Assembly: GCA_016933835.1 (NCBI GenBank)
Contig: JAFGAC010000134.1
Location: 1 to 64,000, forward strand
Reading direction: 5' to 3'
Source of the DNA: Clostridiales bacterium
GTDB lineage: Bacteria; Bacillota; Clostridia; Peptostreptococcales; Acidaminobacteraceae
Length of the DNA stretch: 64,000 nt
The notes beneath the pieces are model-generated. The model was given only the letters and a program-made list of their open reading frames with translations. It ran no database searches and was not told the origin of the DNA. The translations under genes and the position numbers were made by a program. Shown one piece after another: positions 12,527 to 46,952 of this stretch; within the stretch, counting starts at the first letter, position 1, and the number at the start of each line of letters is the position of its first letter.

Positions 12527-13639
12527 CTATAATAAAAAACTACTTCTCTTCCGTCTCATATGAACATTCAAAACAAGCCCAATTGCAATCATACTGGTTA
12601 TAATTGAACTGCCGCCGTAACTTAAAAAAGGCAATGTAATTCCAGTAACAGGCATGATTCCCATTGTCATTCCAATATTTTCTAAAATTTGAAAAAAGAA
12701 CATTGCCAAAACACCTATGATCATAAGTGAACCAAAAGAATCTTTAGCTTTTGAAGCCAAATACAACATTCTCATTAATAGAATACCATAAAGACCGATG
12801 ATAACTGAACCTCCAATGAAACCTAGTTCTTCACCAGCCACTGCAAAGATAAAATCGGTCTCTTGTACAGGAAGATAGTCATATCTATGATATTCTCCAT
12901 TAAAAAGACCTTTTCCAAGTAATTCACCTGATCCAATAGTTATTTTTGACTGCATAACATGATAATTTCCTGGAAGTGTCGGATCATTTGGATTCATAAA
13001 AGCTTCTATTCTTTGAAGCTGATAGGGCTCTAAAAATTTTAATGAAAGTGGCATAGCTACAGCTAGCCCGATAATTCCAGCCAAAATCATTTTATAATTG
13101 AGTCCTGCATAAAACAGCATTGCAATGGCAATAATCACAAAAACCAATGCACTTCCTAAATCTGGCTGTTTAAGCAGTAAAATAATAAAAGGTGCTGCCA
13201 TTAAAAATGGAACAATCAAATCTTTCAAATTGTTTAATTTACCATATTTTGATTCTAAATATTTTGCATATGAAATTATAAACCCTATTTTAGCAATTTC
13301 AGAAGTCTGAAAATCTATAATTCCAAGATCAACCCAACTTCTTGCATTGTTTCTGTATACACCGAGTCCTGGTATATAAACAGAAAGCAACAAAAGTATT
13401 GATATGACATAAATGATTTTATAAAAATCACCATAAGTATTATAATCAAAATACATGACAAAAAGCATCAGCAAAAATCCCAAAGCAAATCCTATTATTT
13501 GTATTTTAACTTGTCTTGTCAATCCTTCCACTTGCATATTAGTTGCACTGGCAATAACAAAAATACCAATGATAAACAACAAAATTATCAACAATATAAG
13601 CAAAAAATCTATATTTTTTATCAATTTTTTATTAATCAT
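12527..13639 (-). CDS. rodA: RodA/FtsW-family peptidoglycan glycosyltransferase
   Basis: A 370-residue SEDS protein with about ten membrane helices. It polymerises lipid II for side-wall growth together with PBP2. The conserved SEDS segments are visible: the extracellular loop with ARSWVDLGIIDFQTSEIAKIG and the C-terminal GITLPFLSYGGSS. It follows the PBP2 gene by one base, so the pair acts as a coupled synthase. The start is ATG after AGAAGGAAG. In many Firmicutes minCDE lies between these two genes; it is absent here. Confidence 0.94.
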   Translation of the reverse strand: MINKKLIKNIDFLLILLIILLFIIGIFVIASATNMQVEGLTRQVKIQIIGFALGFLLMLFVMYFDYNTYGDFYKIIYVISILLLLSVYIPGLGVYRNNARSWVDLGIIDFQTSEIAKIGFIISYAKYLESKYGKLNNLKDLIVPFLMAAPFIILLLKQPDLGSALVFVIIAIAMLFYAGLNYKMILAGIIGLAVAMPLSLKFLEPYQLQRIEAFMNPNDPTLPGNYHVMQSKITIGSGELLGKGLFNGEYHRYDYLPVQETDFIFAVAGEELGFIGGSVIIGLYGILLMRMLYLASKAKDSFGSLMIIGVLAMFFFQILENIGMTMGIMPVTGITLPFLSYGGSSIITSMIAIGLVLNVHMRRKRSSFLL

Positions 13640-13640
13640 T

Positions 13641-16475
13641 TTATTCTTCCTTCTCTAAACTAAGATACTCTGCAATGATATCTCTAGCAATTGGCGATCC
13701 ATAACCACCATGACCTCCCTGAGGAATAAGAACAACAATAGCTATCTCCGGATTGTCAAATGGTGCAAAGCCAACAAACCAAGCATAACTGTCATAGTCT
13801 TCTCTGTATTGATTAATAATTGTATCATTCAATTCAAGATTGCTTAATAATTTTATTGCTTCTCTCATTGCTGATCCTGATGTTAAATAACCGCTTGTAA
13901 TCAATGTGTCAATTTTTTTTGTAAGTTGATTTTTTTTTGCGTCGTCATCCGATTCATCTTTGCTTCTTTCATAAGCAGCGAGTTCTTCGTTTCTAATTCT
14001 TAATACTTCTTCTGTCTTAATTTGTACTTCGTCAATATTTAAAATTGGATCTATTAATTTTAAATTATCTGTCAGATAATCAACTTCATCAGCTGGCGGA
14101 ATTTTTCCTTCTTTTTCAGCAGTACCTGTTTTTGCTCCGATATCAACAGGAAAATCATAGAAAAATGTTCTTGCAGTTCCTTGAGTTCCTTGTACCACTT
14201 GATACATTCCTTTTTTAATTGCATCCAAAGTTCCATCTTTTAGATCCAAGGGCTCTATTCCTTGATTTTTTAGGACAGGCACATCATCGATAGAATCGAC
14301 AAGACTTAGCTCATAAAGATAACCCCCGTTGGAAACTGCCATAATATATCGTGCCATTTGAAGAGGCGAATAAAGATGATCTCCTTGTCCAATCGCCATA
14401 TTTAGAGTATCTCCTTCAAACCATCCAATTCTATTGAAATAATCATATTTTATTATATCAGCCATATCAGCAATCAAATAATAATCATCATATGCCCCAA
14501 TATCTATCAATCTTTTTATCAGTGAAGAACGTGATGGGTTTTCATCTGCCCAGGAAATTATTTCATCAAGCACCTTTTGCAATCGATTGTCATCAGACAC
14601 GATATCTATAGGAAAATACGTATCTATTATCTCATTCAACTTGATTTTAAGACCATACAAGACACTATTCTTTTTCTTTTGTTCATCAGGAACTCCTCTA
14701 ACTGTTTCCTCTATTTCAATTCCTGTACTTTCATTCAATCCAAATTTTTTCGCATAATCAATCATAATAGATGCATTCATTTCAATTCCCAAAGATCTGT
14801 TATTTTTATAGTCCATACCCATTGAAAGATTAAAGAAATAATAATTACATGACACTTCAAGGGCCTTATACAAATCTGTAGGTCCATGTTTCAAATGGTA
14901 ATCATTCCAATACCAACAGCCAAAAATATTATTACCTACTTCAACATAACCATTCGAATCCAATTTTCTATCAGGATCCAGCCCTTGTTCCATCGCTGCT
15001 ATACCAGTTATCATTTTAAAAGTTGATCCAGGCTGCACCGCTGTTAGGGTCGCGGTATTGAATAACGGTCTTGGTGCCAAAGGATTTCGGGCATTTTCAG
15101 GACTGAGCGCATCCCAATCTTCAGTACTGATTCCTGTTGTAAAAAGATTTGGGTCATATGTCGGATAATTTGCAAGCGCGAGCACTTCACCATTACTCAC
15201 ATCTAACACGACTACAGCACCTGACTCAGCTTTTTCAGCTTTTTCATAAGTTACAGTGCCCCATTTATCTTCATAGATTCCGCCATTTTGTATCGCAGGT
15301 ATCCATTTGGCAAGGGATTCTTCCGCAGCCTTTTGAAGGTCCAAATCTATTGTTAGCTTAATGTCCCCGCCCGATTGAGGTTCAACCGATTTTAAGCCAT
15401 CATATTCGTCTTCCACTTCTTTAACCAACCGACCATAGGCATCAACTTCAATATAGCGATACCCATTGTCTCCTCTGAGAACACTTTCATATTCTCCCTC
15501 TATTCCAACTTTTCCAATCAAATCATTCGGATTGTAATTTGATTCATCTACAAATTTCTGAATTTCATACTCACTTGATATCTTACCTAAATAACCCAAA
15601 ATATGAGCTGCCAACGTCTCATTCGGATATGATCGAATAGGCTCAATTGAAATATTAATTCCTGGCAGCTCCATTCCCATTTCTTCGATTAAAACCGCTG
15701 TTTTTTGACTTACATTGTCAGCTATTTTTATAGGATTATATGACATATATCCTTGCTCTTTCAATGCATAACGTAAAGTTAATATTTTGATGGCCTCTTC
15801 ATCTGATACGCTTTCATCAATTCCGTATGATTTAATATTTCTTAAAAAATCCAACGCTTCTTTAGCTGTTGCATCTAAAGCAATGCCATAAAACTTCAAA
15901 AAGTTTTCTTTGTATATTTCACTTAAATATTTCATGGATCTGACTGAAATAGGCAACTTTATTCCTTGCAGCAACAAGAAATTCTGTGCCTCATAATTAT
16001 CCAATTCTTCAGAAATCTGCTCTTTATACCTAATATCGTTAAATATGTTTTCAGCTGAGACATACCCATCATATCCACTTGATTCCAACCACTCAAGCAC
16101 GTTCAAATCATACGAGTACCTGATTTCACCATCGCTAATTATTATAGGAAGATTGATATGACGTTCTTGATTATCATCAAGAATATCAATTATATCAATG
16201 GCTACTTGATTGAAGTCCTCAGAGCTTAAACTATCACCCATGAATTGGACAGTAAAAGCCGGTACATTTCCAGCAAGCAATATACCATTTCTATCATATA
16301 TTTCACCACGTTTTGCAACTTCTGGTATTTGCTTGATACGGTTATTCAGCGCTTTTTCACTATAATACTCTCCGTTAATGATTGTAAGATTAGCCAACCT
16401 TCCAATCAATAGGACTACAATAGCAATAATGACGATACCTATTAAATTCTGCCTGTCAAATATTTTTTTAAACAT
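13641..16475 (-). CDS. mrdA: penicillin-binding protein 2 (class B, elongasome transpeptidase), unusually long
   Basis: A 944-residue class B PBP with an N-terminal membrane helix (about 11-31), a pedestal/dimerisation region and a transpeptidase domain. Active-site motifs are Ser484 in STFK, Ser542 in SCN and Lys782 in KTGT. It is much longer than a typical PBP2 (about 630-700). The extra length lies in three places: the pedestal, a helical stretch of roughly 80 residues between SCN and the GDTLNMAIGQG segment, and a charged, helix-rich stretch of roughly 75-100 residues between KTGT and the conserved YAWFVGFAP. No frameshift or stop is seen, so it is probably functional. It lies between mreD and rodA as part of the rod-shape operon. 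Confidence 0.95.
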   Translation of the reverse strand: MFKKIFDRQNLIGIVIIAIVVLLIGRLANLTIINGEYYSEKALNNRIKQIPEVAKRGEIYDRNGILLAGNVPAFTVQFMGDSLSSEDFNQVAIDIIDILDDNQERHINLPIIISDGEIRYSYDLNVLEWLESSGYDGYVSAENIFNDIRYKEQISEELDNYEAQNFLLLQGIKLPISVRSMKYLSEIYKENFLKFYGIALDATAKEALDFLRNIKSYGIDESVSDEEAIKILTLRYALKEQGYMSYNPIKIADNVSQKTAVLIEEMGMELPGINISIEPIRSYPNETLAAHILGYLGKISSEYEIQKFVDESNYNPNDLIGKVGIEGEYESVLRGDNGYRYIEVDAYGRLVKEVEDEYDGLKSVEPQSGGDIKLTIDLDLQKAAEESLAKWIPAIQNGGIYEDKWGTVTYEKAEKAESGAVVVLDVSNGEVLALANYPTYDPNLFTTGISTEDWDALSPENARNPLAPRPLFNTATLTAVQPGSTFKMITGIAAMEQGLDPDRKLDSNGYVEVGNNIFGCWYWNDYHLKHGPTDLYKALEVSCNYYFFNLSMGMDYKNNRSLGIEMNASIMIDYAKKFGLNESTGIEIEETVRGVPDEQKKKNSVLYGLKIKLNEIIDTYFPIDIVSDDNRLQKVLDEIISWADENPSRSSLIKRLIDIGAYDDYYLIADMADIIKYDYFNRIGWFEGDTLNMAIGQGDHLYSPLQMARYIMAVSNGGYLYELSLVDSIDDVPVLKNQGIEPLDLKDGTLDAIKKGMYQVVQGTQGTARTFFYDFPVDIGAKTGTAEKEGKIPPADEVDYLTDNLKLIDPILNIDEVQIKTEEVLRIRNEELAAYERSKDESDDDAKKNQLTKKIDTLITSGYLTSGSAMREAIKLLSNLELNDTIINQYREDYDSYAWFVGFAPFDNPEIAIVVLIPQGGHGGYGSPIARDIIAEYLSLEKEE

Positions 16476-16484
16476 ATAACCCCT

Positions 16485-16973
16485 CTATCTAATCTCATAT
16501 CCTTTGATATGATTAAAAACAAATCCATAAAAAACATATATCACTACAGTATTATACATCGCTTCTAAAAACCCAATTTCAACTATATAATGAAATGACC
16601 TTGTTGTATCTCTAAGTAGTATAGAAATACTATAATAGAGCAAATGGTAACTGATCGTTGAAATAAAAACGCTTAGTATGGCACTTAATTTATAGTCACT
16701 GAGAAAAACCTCTTTTATTGAATACAATACTAAACTTATTATCAAATAAATCAAAATAGATATTCCAATAGCTTTAGATGCAAAAATATCTTGAAGCAAG
16801 CCAAAAAAAACAGCGAGATAGATTCCTTCCCTATTATCTAGAATCAACACGGAAATTACAATTGAAATTAAAAGCAAGTTTGGAACGACACCCATAATGC
16901 GAAACAATTGAAAAAAAGTCGTTTGTAAAAGAAAAATAAGGAGAGCTAAAATGAAAAGATACCTTTTCTTCAT
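16485..16973 (-). CDS. mreD: rod shape-determining protein MreD
   Basis: A 162-residue membrane protein with about five or six helices, as expected for MreD, which works with MreC, RodA and PBP2 in side-wall synthesis. Sequence conservation in MreD is low, so the call rests on size, topology and position after mreC and before PBP2. I chose the ATG at 16971-16973, which lies one base after the mreC stop behind GAAGGTGAG, in place of an upstream alternative overlapping mreC. Confidence 0.88.
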   Translation of the reverse strand: MKKRYLFILALLIFLLQTTFFQLFRIMGVVPNLLLISIVISVLILDNREGIYLAVFFGLLQDIFASKAIGISILIYLIISLVLYSIKEVFLSDYKLSAILSVFISTISYHLLYYSISILLRDTTRSFHYIVEIGFLEAMYNTVVIYVFYGFVFNHIKGYEIR

Positions 16974-16974
16974 A

Positions 16975-17820
16975 TTACTCACCTTCTTCTTCAATTTTGT
17001 CTGGCGGCAAAACTAAAACACGGTTTATTTTTCTAAAATCCACCATCGGTTTTACAGAAATATTGATTAAAAGTTGATTGCTGTCAATTTCAACTGTCAT
17101 TACTTTTCCAATTATTATCCCTTCAGGATATAATCCCTTTCCAGAAGTAATAATCAAATCATCTTTGTAGACTTTTGCTTTTGGATCAAATAAGTAACCT
17201 TTCAATTCACCATCTATTCCACCATTGATGATACCTTCGTAATCTCTATCCTTACTGGCAATCTTCATCCCAATAGAACTTTTATTGTCTATTATTGAAA
17301 TTACTTTTGACCATTCGCTATTGCTTTCATAAACAGTTCCCACTAACCCATCACCATTAAGTACAACCGCATTTTTAGTAATCCCTTTATTTTCTCCTAT
17401 ATCAAGGCTGAACATATTGAACCAATTTCCAGGATCTTTTGAAACAACTCGTGCCTCAATCAAATTTTCACTATATTCATAGTCAACAAAATCAAAAACA
17501 TTTTGCAGCATTTTCAATTCTCCATATTCATTTGCAATAAGTGTTTCATCAACTAATTTGTTTCTCAACACTTGGTTTTCATTTTCCAATTCCATAATCA
17601 ACTTCTGATTTTCCCAGATATTAAAAATCGGGCTAAAAATAGAATCAGCAAAACCCGCAATTGCATTAAATGATTTTTGAACAGGTGTCAATACCTTTCC
17701 CAATACACTTTCAAATTGTGTAATTCGTTCTCTTCCACCATAAGTCAAAGCTGTTATGAGCACTAATAAAAATATTGAAATTGTAATAATTATTTTTTGT
17801 GTTTTACTAGTATTATTCAA
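16975..17820 (-). CDS. mreC: rod shape-determining protein MreC
   Basis: A 281-residue protein with one N-terminal membrane helix (about 9-27), a coiled coil (about 65-105) and a C-terminal beta-rich domain outside the membrane with the family segments VVSKDPGNWFNMFSLDIG and GLVGTV. It links MreB inside to the PBP2/RodA synthase outside. Neighbours mreB and mreD confirm the assignment. Confidence 0.94.
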   Translation of the reverse strand: MNNTSKTQKIIITISIFLLVLITALTYGGRERITQFESVLGKVLTPVQKSFNAIAGFADSIFSPIFNIWENQKLIMELENENQVLRNKLVDETLIANEYGELKMLQNVFDFVDYEYSENLIEARVVSKDPGNWFNMFSLDIGENKGITKNAVVLNGDGLVGTVYESNSEWSKVISIIDNKSSIGMKIASKDRDYEGIINGGIDGELKGYLFDPKAKVYKDDLIITSGKGLYPEGIIIGKVMTVEIDSNQLLINISVKPMVDFRKINRVLVLPPDKIEEEGE

Positions 17821-17835
17821 ATTCTCACCACTTTA

Positions 17836-18861
17836 TTATCTTCCGATTTTATTCATCTCTTTTTTCAAAACATCAAAATGATTTAAAGATATACCCGCTC
17901 CCAATGCAACGCTTTTTAAAGGTTCATCTACTTTTTTTACTGGAATTCCCAATTTATCTGAAAAAAACATTTCAATTCCTCTAAGCAAAGCTCCTCCACC
18001 TGTCAATGTCATTCCCTGTACCATTATATCAGCAGACAATTCAGGATGCGTGATTTCAAGAATGTTTTTTACTCCATCACTTATTCTTATCAGAATTTCC
18101 TCTGTGGCTTTATAAATTTCATTACTGTTGATTGTAACTTTTTTAGGTAAACCCATAACCAAATCTCTACCAGTAACTTCCATTTCAAGTTCTTCCATAT
18201 CATAGATAGTCCCTATCGTTTTTTTTATGGTTTCCGCGGCACTGACACCTATTGAAAGTTGATATTTTTTCTTTATATATTCCATAATCGCTACATCAAT
18301 TGTATCGCCGGCAATTTTCAATGACTTGCTCACTACTATACCACCTAAGGAAATAACTGCAATTTCAGTTGTTCCCCCTCCGATGTCCACTATCAAATGT
18401 CCAAATGCCTCTTCTATAGATAAGCCTGCACCAATCGCAGCCGCTATTGGTTCTTCAATAATCATGACATCTTTTGCCTTTGCCAGTAAAGTCGCTTCAA
18501 TAACGGCTCTTTTTTCAACCGTTGTCGCTTCTGACGGTACACCAATGACAACTCTTACATGGCTGAACAGATTCCTATGTGGAATGCTTTTATTTAAAAA
18601 ATATTCAATCATTCTATAAGTCGTATCAAAATCTGCAACGACACCTTCTTTTAAAGGTCTTATCAGCTCTATGTTATCCGGCGCTTTACCGATCATATTT
18701 TTAGCTTCTGTACCAACTGCCAAAATTCGGCCGTTTTTTTTATCAATGGCTACAACACTTGGTTCATCAACAACAATTCCTTTACCTTTAATAAATACAA
18801 GTGTGTTTGCAGTGCCTAAATCTATTCCTACATATTTTGTTAAAAATTTAAATATCGCCAT
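17836..18861 (-). CDS. mreB: rod shape-determining actin-like protein MreB
   Basis: A 341-residue bacterial actin that guides side-wall synthesis. It has the phosphate-1 motif GIDLGTANTLVF near the N-terminus, the phosphate-2 segment HLIVDIGGGTTEIAVIS and the adenosine motif TGGGALLRGIE near residue 288. Length is standard. It follows radC and is first of the mre genes proper, in the maf-radC-mreB order common in Firmicutes. Confidence 0.97.
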   Translation of the reverse strand: MAIFKFLTKYVGIDLGTANTLVFIKGKGIVVDEPSVVAIDKKNGRILAVGTEAKNMIGKAPDNIELIRPLKEGVVADFDTTYRMIEYFLNKSIPHRNLFSHVRVVIGVPSEATTVEKRAVIEATLLAKAKDVMIIEEPIAAAIGAGLSIEEAFGHLIVDIGGGTTEIAVISLGGIVVSKSLKIAGDTIDVAIMEYIKKKYQLSIGVSAAETIKKTIGTIYDMEELEMEVTGRDLVMGLPKKVTINSNEIYKATEEILIRISDGVKNILEITHPELSADIMVQGMTLTGGGALLRGIEMFFSDKLGIPVKKVDEPLKSVALGAGISLNHFDVLKKEMNKIGR

Positions 18862-41057: not shown

Positions 41058-41318
41058 TTACATTTTAAACAAAATCCATCGATTCGTTTCAATTTCATAT
41101 TTCAGCTGATAAAGCTTGATCTCCCCCTCTATTTCACTTCTACAATCAAAAACATGCATAATATTTCCTGCGTATTTTTCAACAGTAGTTTTAATTACTT
41201 GATCAATTTTTATCACAACATTTATCCCAGAATCCTCAACTTTAAATTTAAGAGGCCGTATTTTTCCATCTTCATTGAAGCACGCAATCATATGAATAGG
41301 TTTTGCTATCACTTTCAT
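41058..41318 (-). CDS. small SOS-controlled protein of unknown function (86 residues)
   Basis: An 86-residue protein beginning MKVIAKPIHMIACFNEDG and ending with a YQLKYEIETNRWILFKM segment. I have the impression of a small family that accompanies Y-family polymerases in Firmicutes (DUF6504-like), but the match is not secure. It is probably a small beta-rich protein without a signal peptide. The ATG at 41316-41318 follows GGCGGGTG. Its promoter has a LexA box in the spacer, so it should be induced by DNA damage. Confidence 0.75.
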   Translation of the reverse strand: MKVIAKPIHMIACFNEDGKIRPLKFKVEDSGINVVIKIDQVIKTTVEKYAGNIMHVFDCRSEIEGEIKLYQLKYEIETNRWILFKM

Positions 41319-41339
41319 TTTACTCACCCGCCTAATATT

Positions 41340-41368
41340 AAAATACCACGAACTTATGTTCGTGTCAA
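41340..41368 (-). promoter_or_regulatory. SOS promoter with a LexA box in the spacer
   Basis: On the minus strand TTGACA (41363-41368) and TATTTT (41340-41345) are separated by exactly 17 bases, and the spacer carries CGAACATAAGTTCG (41349-41362), a near-consensus LexA box. LexA binding would block RNA polymerase. The promoter points at the 86-residue gene. Confidence 0.92.
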
Positions 41369-41448: not shown

Positions 41449-43965
41449 TTATATAATTATTTTCTCCAAGTCAGGCAAATAAGATTCCAAGTACTTCACA
41501 TTATGTTCTTTACAAGTAAACATTATGACTTGTCGTTCTTTAGAAATTTCCTCAATAAGTTTTAATGTAGGATCTAATCTTTCAACATCCCAATTAGAAA
41601 AAGCTTCATCGAGGATAATCGGCAACTTATCTTTATCCTGATCCAGATATTTAATGAGTGCAAGTCTAAAAGACAGATACAATTGATTTTTTGTCCCCGC
41701 ACTTATTTCACTGTCTGCAGAAACAATTTCTCCCTCTTGATCTTTCAAATACATTTTCTCATCTTCTTCTATCAAAACATGTGTGTATTTGCCATTGGTC
41801 ATTTTGCTGAAATAGTAACTTGTCAATTTCAAAACATCGGGCTGATTTTTTTCTCTATAGCGCTCATCCGCTCTGACAATCAACTGCTTCAATATAGATA
41901 AAATATCATATTGATGGGCATACTCTTTTAAAGCATGTGTTTTGTATTCAATTTTCCCCTCAATTACATCTAATGTATCTCCAGTTATTTTATGATCAAT
42001 TTCTGCTTTCAACTGTATGTTTCTCTTTGCTTTCTCTGTTTTTTCAAGCTGCAATGACTCAATATCATTTTCAATGACAATAAGATAATCTTCATTGATT
42101 ATAGACTGATCCAAATTATCAATTTCTTCTTCAATCTGACTCATATTGAAATTTTCAGCAAGCTCTGACTCATAATGAATGATACGATCTCTCACAGATA
42201 GATATTTTTCGATATTGCTGTATCCAATTTCAAAATTGCCGTTCCCCATTTTATTAATGGTATTTTCAATCATGGTATATTCATGATCTTTTTCAAGTGT
42301 TTTTTGTGCCAATTGATGAAGTCCATTATTTTCTTGTTCAATATCCCTCATCAGTTCATCATTCAATCTTGATTTTGCAACTGCTTCACTTAAAACATGA
42401 TTCAACATTTTCACATTTCTTATGTCATCAAACTTTGTAAAAATCTCATCATATTCACGCAAGCACTTAAGCTCAGCTTTTCCCAATTCTTGTTTTAAAT
42501 TGAGCAACTCTTCTGTTTTAATTCTAATTGTCTGATAGTTTTCCAAATTCTTTAAATTTATTTCAGTAAAGTTTTCTGCTATTTCCGGAACAATTCCAAT
42601 GGTTATAAGTTCTTTTTTCAACAATACACTGCTGCTGCTCTTTAATTTTTCTCTTCTATCAAAATAATCAAATATAACAATCAATAAAGTAATCGCTAAA
42701 ACTGCCGCTCCAAAAATATTTTGAGTAAATATGCCCACTCCCAAAAGTCCCAAAATAACTAATACCTTAAAAATCGCCAATGGTCCTTTTGAATTGTTAC
42801 TTTCATCTTCTTTTGATTTGTAGTATAGTGTTTGAATTTTTTGAAAATCAAAGTCAACAACATTTCGAATCTTTTCCTTAAAGAGATAATCCACTTCATT
42901 ATGCATTTTTTGAACATTCATTTCAAAGTACTCATTATTTTTATCAATGTTATCTTTTACTTTATCAAGTTTTAATTCAACTGATTCAATTTCTTCTAGT
43001 CTGTCTTTTAAACTCAAAGCCATTTTTTCATCATAGCTCAATTCTTCTATTTTTTCTTTCTTCAAAGCCACTTTGACATCTTTTTCTGATATTTCATCGC
43101 GATATTCTTTTAAAATCTCTTTCAAAGATTGATACTTCTCTAAAATTTCTTTATCAAGTCTCTCATATCTTTCATAATTTTCTACATTCGCTTTTAGATT
43201 TTCTATTTTATTTATCAAATCAATCGGTTTTAAATACCGATTAATTTGATTTTTTAAATTCACTTTTTCAATAATTTTTTCATCAAGTTTCAACAATTCT
43301 TTGTCCAACTTTTGAATATCTTCAGACATGACGCGCACTTCATGATATTGATTGCTCTTATCTTTTTTTTCTCGTTTTAGTTCCTTTATTTCATCTATCA
43401 ATTGATTGATCGTTTGTTTATTTCCTCGACTTCTAGCATTATAAAGGTTTTTTATATCCTCATCTAACTGCTGTATGACTGCTTTAGGAGATACATTACT
43501 ATTGCCGTAATTCAACACTAACTTATCCTGCAGTTCACTAAAGGACTTTGTTTCTATCTCTTTAAGCTGTTCACTTGTAATCATATAGACATTATTGAAA
43601 ATATTTCGAGACATGTATTCTGAATCAGGTAATGTACGATTATTGAGCTGAATAATTTCCAGACCATCTTCTATTGCCGCTTTTACATTATTGGATAATA
43701 ATCTTTTGACATTCAACTTTTTACCAGCACTATTCAGGTAGGACATGGCTATATTGAGACGCTCACCTTTCCAAGGCAGATATTTATGATTATCTTTTTT
43801 TGAACGCTCGAATCCAAAAATCAACTCGCTGATTGCCGAAACAATCGTTGATTTTCCAGCTTCATTTTTTCCATAAATCAAATTTGGTCGATTTTCAGAT
43901 AATTTAATTACTTTTTTATTATCGAATTTTCCATATTCAAATAGTGTAACTTCATTTATTTTCAT
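41449..43965 (-). CDS. YhaN-like ATPase (SbcC/Rad50-like) with internal membrane segments
   Basis: An 838-residue Rad50/SMC-type ATPase with Walker A GKNEAGKST (about residue 34), two long coiled-coil regions and C-terminal signature and Walker B in LDEAFSNWDVERL (about 800). A hydrophobic region of about 40 residues (about 392-435, two helices, GVGIFTQNIFGAAVL between them) interrupts the coiled coils, as in YhaN of Bacillus, and places the ATPase at the membrane. It pairs with the YhaO-like nuclease gene, overlapping by 4 bases (ATGA). Confidence 0.87.
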   Translation of the reverse strand: MKINEVTLFEYGKFDNKKVIKLSENRPNLIYGKNEAGKSTIVSAISELIFGFERSKKDNHKYLPWKGERLNIAMSYLNSAGKKLNVKRLLSNNVKAAIEDGLEIIQLNNRTLPDSEYMSRNIFNNVYMITSEQLKEIETKSFSELQDKLVLNYGNSNVSPKAVIQQLDEDIKNLYNARSRGNKQTINQLIDEIKELKREKKDKSNQYHEVRVMSEDIQKLDKELLKLDEKIIEKVNLKNQINRYLKPIDLINKIENLKANVENYERYERLDKEILEKYQSLKEILKEYRDEISEKDVKVALKKEKIEELSYDEKMALSLKDRLEEIESVELKLDKVKDNIDKNNEYFEMNVQKMHNEVDYLFKEKIRNVVDFDFQKIQTLYYKSKEDESNNSKGPLAIFKVLVILGLLGVGIFTQNIFGAAVLAITLLIVIFDYFDRREKLKSSSSVLLKKELITIGIVPEIAENFTEINLKNLENYQTIRIKTEELLNLKQELGKAELKCLREYDEIFTKFDDIRNVKMLNHVLSEAVAKSRLNDELMRDIEQENNGLHQLAQKTLEKDHEYTMIENTINKMGNGNFEIGYSNIEKYLSVRDRIIHYESELAENFNMSQIEEEIDNLDQSIINEDYLIVIENDIESLQLEKTEKAKRNIQLKAEIDHKITGDTLDVIEGKIEYKTHALKEYAHQYDILSILKQLIVRADERYREKNQPDVLKLTSYYFSKMTNGKYTHVLIEEDEKMYLKDQEGEIVSADSEISAGTKNQLYLSFRLALIKYLDQDKDKLPIILDEAFSNWDVERLDPTLKLIEEISKERQVIMFTCKEHNVKYLESYLPDLEKIII

Positions 43966-45182
43966 GATTCATCACCTGTAAAATATGCCATCATCAATTC
44001 CATCAATTCTTCTTTATGTTGATTTATAATACTTTCTGGATTTTCTTCATTATCAAATATTTGATATTTAATATGTTTCATATTTTTCATCATTTTTTTA
44101 TCTCCATTAGGATTATTCATAATCATCATCACTTCTTCTAAGACTTTATTGTCTTGAATCAAATCTTCCAATTTTTTAACATTTTTTAATTGGTATTTTT
44201 TAATTTCCAATGATTTTATATCCAAATCCTGAGCTAGTTCTTCTTCCAAATATTCAATTGACTCTACAGAATTCAGATACTTGACCATATTCGTCTGCCC
44301 AGTAATAAAGAGTCTGATAATTAAATTGCTTGAATTGTAGTTGAATGCAAGCAATTCTTCTGCTATAAGCCCTTTTAAAATATTGTAAAAGTCATACTCA
44401 GATCCGTATTCTCCCGTAATATCAATTGTCATGTGTTCAAAAAAAACAGTATTTAATGGTATAAACTCTATTTCAATAAGACCGTTGTCAACTTTTATAA
44501 AGTTTCCACCTTTTAACCCAGTTTCATTGATATTCAATCCTTGAATATTGCCTGAGTAAAAGATAGGATAGTCTTTAAATTGCATTCTTGAATGAATATG
44601 TCCCAGTGCCCAATAATCATATTTCTTATCAAGCAAATCTTCTAATGAAGTGGGCATATATTTTCCTTTTGTTTCATCAACTTCAACATTTTCAACCATC
44701 GTGTGAGCAATTCCAACAATAGGACGATCATCCATCTTTTTAGGAAACTTTCTAATTAAATTTCTTTTCTCATTATCGTTGATATGCCCTACACCAATAA
44801 TCCGACATACTTTGTCATGTTTATCTTTAATAATATATTCAGTCGGCACATCTCTATCAAATATATGTACATTATCACCAAATTTCGACTTCATATAAAT
44901 AACAGGATCATGATTACCAGGTGTATAAAAGACATGAATATTTTTTTCTCTCAATTTTTCAAAATTTTCCCATAGAAATTTTTCTGTATTTAGAGAAATT
45001 CTTTCATTGTCAAATAAATCTCCTGCTATTAAAAGTCCATCAATTTCTTCCTTAATGCAGAAATCGACAGCTTTTCGAAATGCATCCTTTTGACTGGCTT
45101 TTAAATCACTTCTGACGTTCGTATCTTTGCTCATTAAAGGAGCATCGAAATGAACATCAGCAATATGCAAGAATTTAAACAT
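43962..45182 (-). CDS. YhaO-like DNA repair exonuclease (SbcD/Mre11-type)
   Basis: A 406-residue calcineurin-like phosphoesterase with the metal-binding motifs HIADVHFDAPL, AGDLFDN, PGNHDP and GHIHSRMQ. It is the nuclease partner of the Rad50-like ATPase and should act on DNA ends. The ATG at 45180-45182 follows AAAGGGGG; an upstream ATG lies before that site. The stop overlaps the ATPase start by 4 bases. No LexA box was seen upstream. Confidence 0.88.
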   Translation of the reverse strand: MFKFLHIADVHFDAPLMSKDTNVRSDLKASQKDAFRKAVDFCIKEEIDGLLIAGDLFDNERISLNTEKFLWENFEKLREKNIHVFYTPGNHDPVIYMKSKFGDNVHIFDRDVPTEYIIKDKHDKVCRIIGVGHINDNEKRNLIRKFPKKMDDRPIVGIAHTMVENVEVDETKGKYMPTSLEDLLDKKYDYWALGHIHSRMQFKDYPIFYSGNIQGLNINETGLKGGNFIKVDNGLIEIEFIPLNTVFFEHMTIDITGEYGSEYDFYNILKGLIAEELLAFNYNSSNLIIRLFITGQTNMVKYLNSVESIEYLEEELAQDLDIKSLEIKKYQLKNVKKLEDLIQDNKVLEEVMMIMNNPNGDKKMMKNMKHIKYQIFDNEENPESIINQHKEELMELMMAYFTGDES

Positions 45183-45266
45183 GCTGATCCCCCTTTTCAT
45201 TCTATTTTAACACATCTCATATAAAAAAAGTTTAATACCCTATTATTTTAGTATATAATATTATTA

Positions 45267-45291
45267 AGAAATACTTTACGCTAAATGGAGG
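45267..45291 (+). promoter_or_regulatory. -10-like element and ribosome-binding site deciding a GTG start
   Basis: GGAGG (45287-45291) lies 7 bases before GTG (45299), while a TTG two codons earlier is only 1 base from it, so GTG is the start. A TATAAT-like sequence lies about 30 bases upstream with a poor -35 (TTTAAT). Confidence 0.6.
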
Positions 45292-45298
45292 TTTGATT

Positions 45299-46915
45299 GT
45301 GGACAAAATCTACAATAATATATATAGAGTCGTTAATCTTTTTCAAGAAAATTCATATCAAAAAATATACACTGGTGAATCTCTAGAAGATCCCAATCTT
45401 ATTGTTGTTATTAATGAGCTGATTAAAACAGACTCAAAAATGATGAATTTGATTGATAGTTTAAAAAATAATTTAGATCATCTGCTGTATTTCACTGAAA
45501 ATGATTCTTCTGCTATATTTATTACAAAATACGAAGAAGGTATGAGTATTTTTCAAATGATTGACAACATTCCAAATACAACTAATTTCAGAACCAATAT
45601 TCTTCATGATTATCTTAATACATTGAGAAAATTTGATTCTCTACCTTATATATTCCAATATATTTTATCGAGTCATTCACAATTTTACATAAAAGACCAT
45701 GATCTTATTCACAATGAATTGATTATAATTGATGAAGAAAAAATATCAAGTGACATTGAATTTGTCGATGTCAAGAAACGAATCAAAGAATTTGCCCTAA
45801 GAATGCTTGATTTTACAGCTCCTGAAAAAGATTCTGAGCTAATACTGCTCTTGAATTCTTTTTTCAAGAACATTGATATTGACCCTTCATTGGACTCTAT
45901 AGAGAAAATATACGATGACTATAAAAGAATATACATCTATGACATGTACTTGGATAAAAAAAATGTTTCAACATATTCAACTTTTGATGACAGAAGCCAA
46001 TCAGGAAATAATGCTGCATCTGATTTTTTAAATGATAGAAGCTCAAGTGAAAAGAAAAAATTTTATCTGCCATTTTCAAATAATAAAATATTTTTATTCC
46101 GACAAGATAAATATGCAGCCAATCCTCTATTTGTAGCCCTTATTATAATGGCTATCGCTATTGCTCTTTTTGCAGTTTTTACTCCTATGATCAATAAAAT
46201 CAAGAGTAATGATATTCCTATTGCATCCTTTGAAAAAGAAAAAATGGAAAATCAATGGAAATTTATCAATATGAGCAAAACTTTCAGCAAGAACAATAAA
46301 ATTGAGGAAGTTGAATGGACAGTTTATTCAGACAATGAATTGATTGATACCTTTAATACATACAACTTAAACTTGTCATTTACAACAGAAGGCATTTATA
46401 GAATATCATTACGTGTCATGGATTCATTTGGAAACTGGAGTGATGCTTACACTGAAGAAATTTACCATACGCAGTTAGATTTAGAACCCATTGAAGATCA
46501 GGATAATTTGGATAGTTCTCAAACTGAACCACTTGATAGTTATACAATCACTTTTGATGACCAAGTTTCCTTTGATGAGGAAGTTGTGAAAGCAGGCAGT
46601 AAATCAATAAAGATGATTTTTTCAGGAGATGAAACACACGGCATCAATTTGGATAAATTATTTTTAGACAACAATATCAAAATTTCACTTTGGGTGAAAG
46701 CGACTGATGATTCACCAGTGACTGTCACGGTTACAGGTCTAAACGGAAACGATAAAATTTTCTCCATGTCAAAAGTCCAATATCCACCTATTGATGAATG
46801 GAAGCAAATCAGTTTCAATACAAATACCGCGCATGCCAATAATCTAAGAATCAGCATCAATGCAGAAGATATGATCATATGGATAGATGATATCGAGATT
46901 AATTCCTATAAATAA
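45299..46915 (+). CDS. single-pass membrane protein: degenerate kinase-like inside, PKD-like and jelly-roll-like outside
   Basis: A 538-residue protein with no clear full-length relative that I recognise. Residues 1-170 resemble a protein kinase fold that has lost residues: a beta-3-like strand IVVINEL has Asn39 where the Lys should be, a hinge-like ITKYEEGMSIFQMI follows, and the catalytic-loop-like HDLIHNELIII keeps Asp135 and Asn139; FVDVK (Asp157) stands in for DFG. Then come a low-complexity linker (about 225-270), one membrane helix (about 276-299), a PKD/Ig-like domain (about 310-395) and a C-terminal beta-sandwich with WVKATDDSPVTVTV and DDIEI, like carbohydrate-binding jelly rolls. 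It stands alone, divergent from yhaO. It may link an outside ligand to an inside pseudokinase. Confidence 0.75.
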   Translation: MDKIYNNIYRVVNLFQENSYQKIYTGESLEDPNLIVVINELIKTDSKMMNLIDSLKNNLDHLLYFTENDSSAIFITKYEEGMSIFQMIDNIPNTTNFRTNILHDYLNTLRKFDSLPYIFQYILSSHSQFYIKDHDLIHNELIIIDEEKISSDIEFVDVKKRIKEFALRMLDFTAPEKDSELILLLNSFFKNIDIDPSLDSIEKIYDDYKRIYIYDMYLDKKNVSTYSTFDDRSQSGNNAASDFLNDRSSSEKKKFYLPFSNNKIFLFRQDKYAANPLFVALIIMAIAIALFAVFTPMINKIKSNDIPIASFEKEKMENQWKFINMSKTFSKNNKIEEVEWTVYSDNELIDTFNTYNLNLSFTTEGIYRISLRVMDSFGNWSDAYTEEIYHTQLDLEPIEDQDNLDSSQTEPLDSYTITFDDQVSFDEEVVKAGSKSIKMIFSGDETHGINLDKLFLDNNIKISLWVKATDDSPVTVTVTGLNGNDKIFSMSKVQYPPIDEWKQISFNTNTAHANNLRISINAEDMIIWIDDIEINSYK

Positions 46916-46916
46916 C

Positions 46917-46949
46917 AAAAAGATGAAATTTTAATAATTTCATCTTTTT
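46917..46949. terminator. bidirectional terminator between convergent genes
   Basis: Exact 14-base arms (46917-46930 and 46936-46949) with a 5-base loop. A-rich left and T-rich right ends serve both the membrane protein gene and the MocR gene on the other strand. Confidence 0.9.
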
Positions 46950-46952
46950 ATT

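Follow-up and report, generated by a model that had tools for sequence, protein, structure and literature searches.

A conserved family of membrane-anchored pseudokinases with PKD-like and jelly-roll-like outside domains in Fusibacter-like Clostridia

What is the role of a dead kinase domain that stands behind an outside sensor? Bacterial pseudokinases with known function are few, EssB and MviN being the main examples, and the gene studied here, found in a window of 64,000 nucleotides (the whole stretch of DNA analysed) from a Clostridiales bacterium, belongs to a family that offers a direct way to ask this question. In this study, we propose, with a probability of about 0.5, that its product has been inherited vertically within Fusibacter-like Clostridia and serves as a receptor or scaffold that crosses the membrane once and is catalytically dead.

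The gene and its surroundings are listed in Table 1. The open reading frame proposed from the sequence alone stands as described, with 538 codons in frame on the forward strand (45299-46915), a GTG start and GGAGG at 45287-45291, and it is single-copy in the query genome. Judged by its relatives, it is a real gene far beyond chance, since full-length relatives were found down to an E-value of 1.7e-231, with 25-67% identity, and, where dS was unsaturated, dN/dS (NG86) came to about 0.10 in most pairs and to 0.25 in one. The possible promoter is weak, and promoter-like sites upstream were no commoner in the scan than in shuffles of the same region. The inverted repeat behind the gene, which is too A+T-rich for the scan used on the promoter sites, lies between convergent genes, the downstream one being of the MocR type, and is possibly a terminator shared by both. 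At one related locus (L051:7596-8260, genome G040), a TAA breaks the pseudokinase frame where the kinase-like domain ends.

Table 1. Positions in the window of the pseudokinase gene, its parts and its neighbours.
Feature	Position	Strand	Basis
Whole gene, 538 aa: pseudokinase, linker, membrane helix, PKD, jelly roll	45299..46915	+	
Possible sigma-70 promoter, TTAATA-16-TATAAT, 10/12, weak	45232..45259	+	scan
Shine-Dalgarno GGAGG, 7 bases 5' of the GTG start	45287..45291	+	read in sequence
Cytoplasmic kinase-like domain, residues 1-217; VAIK, HRD and DFG motifs all lost	45299..45949	+	
Ser/Thr-rich juxtamembrane linker, residues 218-276	45950..46126	+	
Sole predicted membrane helix, residues 277-295	46127..46183	+	
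PKD-like domain, residues 306-391	46214..46471	+	profile, model
Jelly roll like CBM4/16/44/61, residues 410-538	46526..46912	+	profile, model, fold search
A+T-rich inverted repeat AAAAAGATGAAATT..TTTCATCTTTTT	46917..46951	.	read in sequence
Divergent neighbour, SbcD/YhaO-like metallophosphoesterase	43962..45200	-	
Next neighbour, YhaN-like AAA_27 ATPase	41449..43965	-	

The sequence-only reading had placed a pseudokinase fold inside the cell, and a structural model and fold search agreed. AlphaFold2, given an alignment of 36 sequences, modelled residues 1-217 with a pLDDT of 92.9 and a pTM of 0.88, in the order of a short protein kinase: five strands and helix C make up the N-lobe, and the hinge, helices D and E, a beta-7/beta-8 hairpin and three C-lobe helices follow, with the activation segment almost absent. 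A Foldseek search of the PDB with this model returned 1,085 chains at E<=0.001, and every one of the best 50 was a protein kinase or the MLKL pseudokinase. TM-scores ranged from 0.41 to 0.56 of the query, moderate values that are in keeping with the small size and divergence of the domain. When the family profile was used, S. aureus PknB was the top sequence match (E 2.6e-4) and kinases made up nearly all of the 47 matches. According to the model, the inner domain is thus a two-lobed protein-kinase fold. No Pfam or NCBIfam model claims residues 1-217, and the suggestion that no named family matches the protein over its full length also held in searches of these two collections.

The catalytic motifs were then placed by aligning an HMM of neighbouring PrkC kinases to the relatives and by reference to the model strands; this register was adopted because only the hinge region could be aligned when the family profile was compared with a profile of the local PrkC kinases. 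The claim that Asn39 occupies the beta-3 Lys position was upheld, as N39 sits in the model strand 35-42, and at this VAIK site Lys occurs in 0/76 relatives and Asn in 57/76. The PrkC-kinase HMM aligned HRDIKPHNILI to QLVDEEQILI of relative L067, whose QLVDEEQ segment corresponds to query residues about 121-128. The site of the HRD catalytic Asp is accordingly L123, with Leu in 69/76, and that of the catalytic-loop Asn is Q128, with Gln in 61/76 and Asn in 14/76. The DFG site falls at 139-143 with an uncertainty of about 2 residues, and in no register was a conserved DFG Asp found, Asp occurring in at most 9/76 per candidate column. The three residues put forward as kept kinase landmarks, D135, N139 and D157, did not bear this out: they are present in the query and in only 3, 31 and 18 of the 76 relatives, respectively; D135 starts the model strand 135-138 (beta-8), past the catalytic loop, and D157 lies within the model helix 155-169, in the helix F region. 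With Lys absent from the beta-3 site, Leu prevailing at the HRD Asp and the DFG Asp unconserved, the alignments indicate that the family as a whole has lost all three motifs. An active Hanks-type Ser/Thr kinase was rejected on these losses, which make ATP-dependent phosphotransfer by the inner domain very unlikely.

Beyond the inner domain, a linker with 11/58 Ser/Thr residues, which is likely disordered, leads to the membrane. A single membrane helix was predicted, as anticipated from the sequence, and exactly one is found in 70/77 members. The outside part had been described as a PKD-like domain followed by a beta-sandwich with a carbohydrate-binding look, and profile, model and fold matches are in line with this. 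The C-terminal profile matched the PKD of ColH (E 4e-11), the PKD-CBM44 pair of Cel9D-Cel44A (2c26, E 3e-9) and laminarinase CBM4 (1gui, E 6e-4), and the C-terminal model, which is all-beta with a pLDDT of 87, matched SGBP-B, 2c26, CBM61, CBM16 and CBM4-2. Single-sequence Pfam scores were under the curated cut-offs for both PKD (PF18911, PKD_4; 18.5 bits, cut-off 27) and CBM_4_9 (18, cut-off 25.9). The aromatics W465, W501, W528 and that at position 537 are partly conserved in the jelly roll, and W501 and W528 are at sites that we take to be usually core in this fold. By profile and model, the outside domains look like sugar-binding modules, and sugar binding is putative. Members with the jelly roll mostly end in an aromatic residue and Lys (window 46907-46912 in the query), with Lys last in 43/49, an ending that points to some importance of the free C-terminus.

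Since surface proteins commonly carry CBM-like and PKD domains, the outside domains might do the work of a surface adhesin or wall-anchoring protein, with the kinase-like domain as an inner plug or anchor without signalling, and the variable linker, 18 to 399 residues across members, fits loose tethering. We consider this rather unlikely. What members have most in common is the inner domain, which defines the family, and the outside domains vary in their presence: the full order of kinase-like domain, helix, PKD and jelly roll is found in 40/77 members, helix and PKD without jelly roll in 15 and helix and jelly roll without PKD in seven, and the jelly roll is absent in 28/77 listed relatives, about one third, a few of which are cut at contig ends. 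Moreover, the former active-site positions are kept, with Gln or Asn at 128 in 75/76 and Leu at 123 in 69/76. The same loss of the jelly roll or PKD in some members also counts against the receptor or scaffold that we favour.

An amide side chain is repeatedly found at each of the three positions that were once catalytic, with N/Q/N (N39, Q128, N139) in 25/76 relatives, and this raises the idea that the pocket may be kept and that it still binds a nucleotide or small ligand, or supports an unusual reaction like that of SelO or SidJ. However, the domain has no Gly-rich loop, no beta-3 Lys and no metal-binding Asp, and in the reviewed bacterial families that have lost all three motifs ATP binding is nearly always lost too (PMC12599244), so that we regard a working pocket as improbable.

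The genomic neighbourhood offers another candidate function, in which the pseudokinase works with the divergent YhaO-YhaN-like nuclease/ATPase, for example by holding it at the membrane or through shared regulation. The pair is directly divergent at 25/27 loci of the query's own (Fusibacter) family where the contig permits the test, and at 3/4 loci of a second family. However, L040 and L058, the two remaining loci of the query's family, have lost yhaO-yhaN but keep the pseudokinase, and in families f2, f11, f12, f4 and f31 the pseudokinase has unrelated neighbours, among them an AbgT transporter, MetG and transketolase. No neighbour gene is conserved across the whole family, and a LexA box was not found in the shared upstream region. 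The association is lineage-wide rather than family-wide and is weak evidence of function, and a partnership of this kind, including a possible role in DNA repair, seems to us quite improbable. Behind yhaN, a perfect Firmicutes LexA (SOS) palindrome, CGAACTTATGTTCG, is located at window 41349-41362, just upstream of an 89-aa ORF (41058-41327, reverse strand). A perfect LexA box also stands directly before the orthologues of this ORF in L034-L037 and L062, with constant arms and a variable centre, and the ORF looks like an unnamed SOS-controlled small protein on this sequence pattern. Cell-elongation genes (RodA/FtsW-type, PBP2-type transpeptidase, MreB) are located about 27 kb away, at 12527-18861 on the reverse strand, and are not linked to the pseudokinase finding.

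In EssB/YukC (PF10140), too, the N-terminus forms a cytoplasmic pseudokinase of some 200 residues that has lost the three motifs, and EssB acts as a non-catalytic scaffold (PMC12599244); the single helix and the short activation segment are also shared, and our protein might be suspected to form part of a type VIIb-like secretion machine. PF10140 had no match in the protein or in the whole query genome, whereas the control genome of B. subtilis does match. The outside part of EssB is helical and serves secretion, while the C-terminal model here is all-beta, made up of PKD and jelly roll, and the listed neighbours in the window are not secretion genes. Membership in EssB/YukC was rejected on the missing PF10140 match and the all-beta model, and the secretion reading, largely refuted, is very improbable.

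Of 394 genomes sampled from the order, 82 gave a match at E<=0.001. Almost every genome of the query's family is among them, together with representatives of five or more other families, and the weakest of these matches (around 1e-4) may be ordinary kinases. Weaker members are present in other orders of the class, and in a phylum sample of 299 genomes no other genome matches at 1e-8. The tree of 76 rows tracks taxonomic family with seven changes, the least possible, and descent is therefore mainly vertical. The catalytic motifs being all gone, a decaying kinase gene without function would come to mind, but purifying selection, intact frames across dozens of genera and the taxonomy-tracking tree rule out a pseudogene and leave this reading a negligible chance. 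A defence system was also rejected, as there was no PADLOC family match. Three large genomes from the query's family (L069:7572-10212, L119:8608 onward and L129:8550 onward) carry a second, paralogous pseudokinase, with a PK domain, a long linker and a helix at the extreme C-terminus, and no outside domain. The gene after this paralogue, on the same strand, is homologous in all three and in L069 encodes a LytTR response regulator, which hints at a signalling partner.

The protein thus belongs to an old, unnamed family of Fusibacter-like Clostridia, spread over six or more families within one order of Clostridia, and adds to the bacterial pseudokinases a conserved receptor-like family that includes cultured species, Fusibacter bizertensis and F. 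tunisiensis being among the relatives. Neither the family nor its domain order has an entry in Pfam, NCBIfam or PADLOC, and no paper that combines a bacterial pseudokinase with a PKD domain was found in the collection searched.

How might such a receptor or scaffold work? In principle it would resemble EssB or MviN, which are the precedents for such a role, without belonging to either. The outside domains would recognise a ligand on the surface or in the environment, with a glycan or wall polymer as the likeliest candidate, and binding would alter the clustering or position of the protein, whose pseudokinase domain would offer a docking surface for a partner inside. The best candidate partner would be the PASTA kinase PrkC or a PrkC substrate, because the query genome encodes PrkC with PASTA repeats and a PP2C phosphatase, a link of co-occurrence with a kinase that is nearly universal. 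More broadly, the family might stand for a class of pseudokinase receptors, so far without a name and present throughout the order, whose PKD/CBM-like domains read a glycan or wall ligand and whose dead kinase tunes PrkC-type Ser/Thr phosphorylation in clostridia, a proposal that we put forward tentatively. The query genome also holds a second kinase (L143:1333-3291, G000 contig C85) of 652 aa, which keeps FRDLQPKN and has a membrane helix after the kinase part, followed by a large outside domain without a name.

Among known systems, CD2148 of C. difficile is a membrane-anchored, kinase-like protein without PASTA repeats, for which no autophosphorylation was detected, and it modulates PrkC-dependent phosphorylation and is a possible pseudokinase (PMC9674922). 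CD2148, from the same broad group, shares with our protein the membrane anchoring and the lack of PASTA repeats; compared here via its published description, it keeps far more kinase sequence and has no reported PKD/CBM-like domain. Mycobacterial MviN (ActPs3) combines an inside pseudokinase, which has lost the three motif sites, with an outside domain of carbohydrate-binding fold (PMC12599244), and both features recur here. However, MviN, a homologue of lipid II flippases, spans the membrane with many helices and carries its pseudokinase after this bundle, while here a single helix follows the pseudokinase, and the beta-3 site is Thr in MviN and mostly Asn in our family. The FHA partner of MviN is without counterpart, as no FHA domain (PF00498) was matched in the 95% complete query genome, which closes the MviN-type recruitment of an FHA protein; with no many-helix bundle before the pseudokinase either, MviN/ActPs3 membership was rejected. 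Tail phosphorylation by a PknB-type kinase, as in MviN, could have a parallel here, the linker being Ser/Thr-rich and PrkC encoded.

PrkC/PknB kinases share with our protein the inside kinase fold, one helix and an outside sensor domain, but PrkC is active and carries PASTA repeats, while the query protein, rejected as a PASTA kinase, has neither a PASTA match nor the catalytic residues. RsgI-type anti-sigma factors of cellulolytic clostridia consist of an inside regulatory domain, one helix and a CBM-like outside sensor. Their inside part is an anti-sigma domain and not a kinase fold, and there was no RsgI match here. Cel9D-Cel44A (2c26) is a secreted cellulase module without membrane helix or pseudokinase, yet has the same PKD-CBM44 outside order by profile and fold. 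Transmembrane pseudokinases that carry an outside sensor are already known in bacteria, and it is the domain order and the family that appear to be new.
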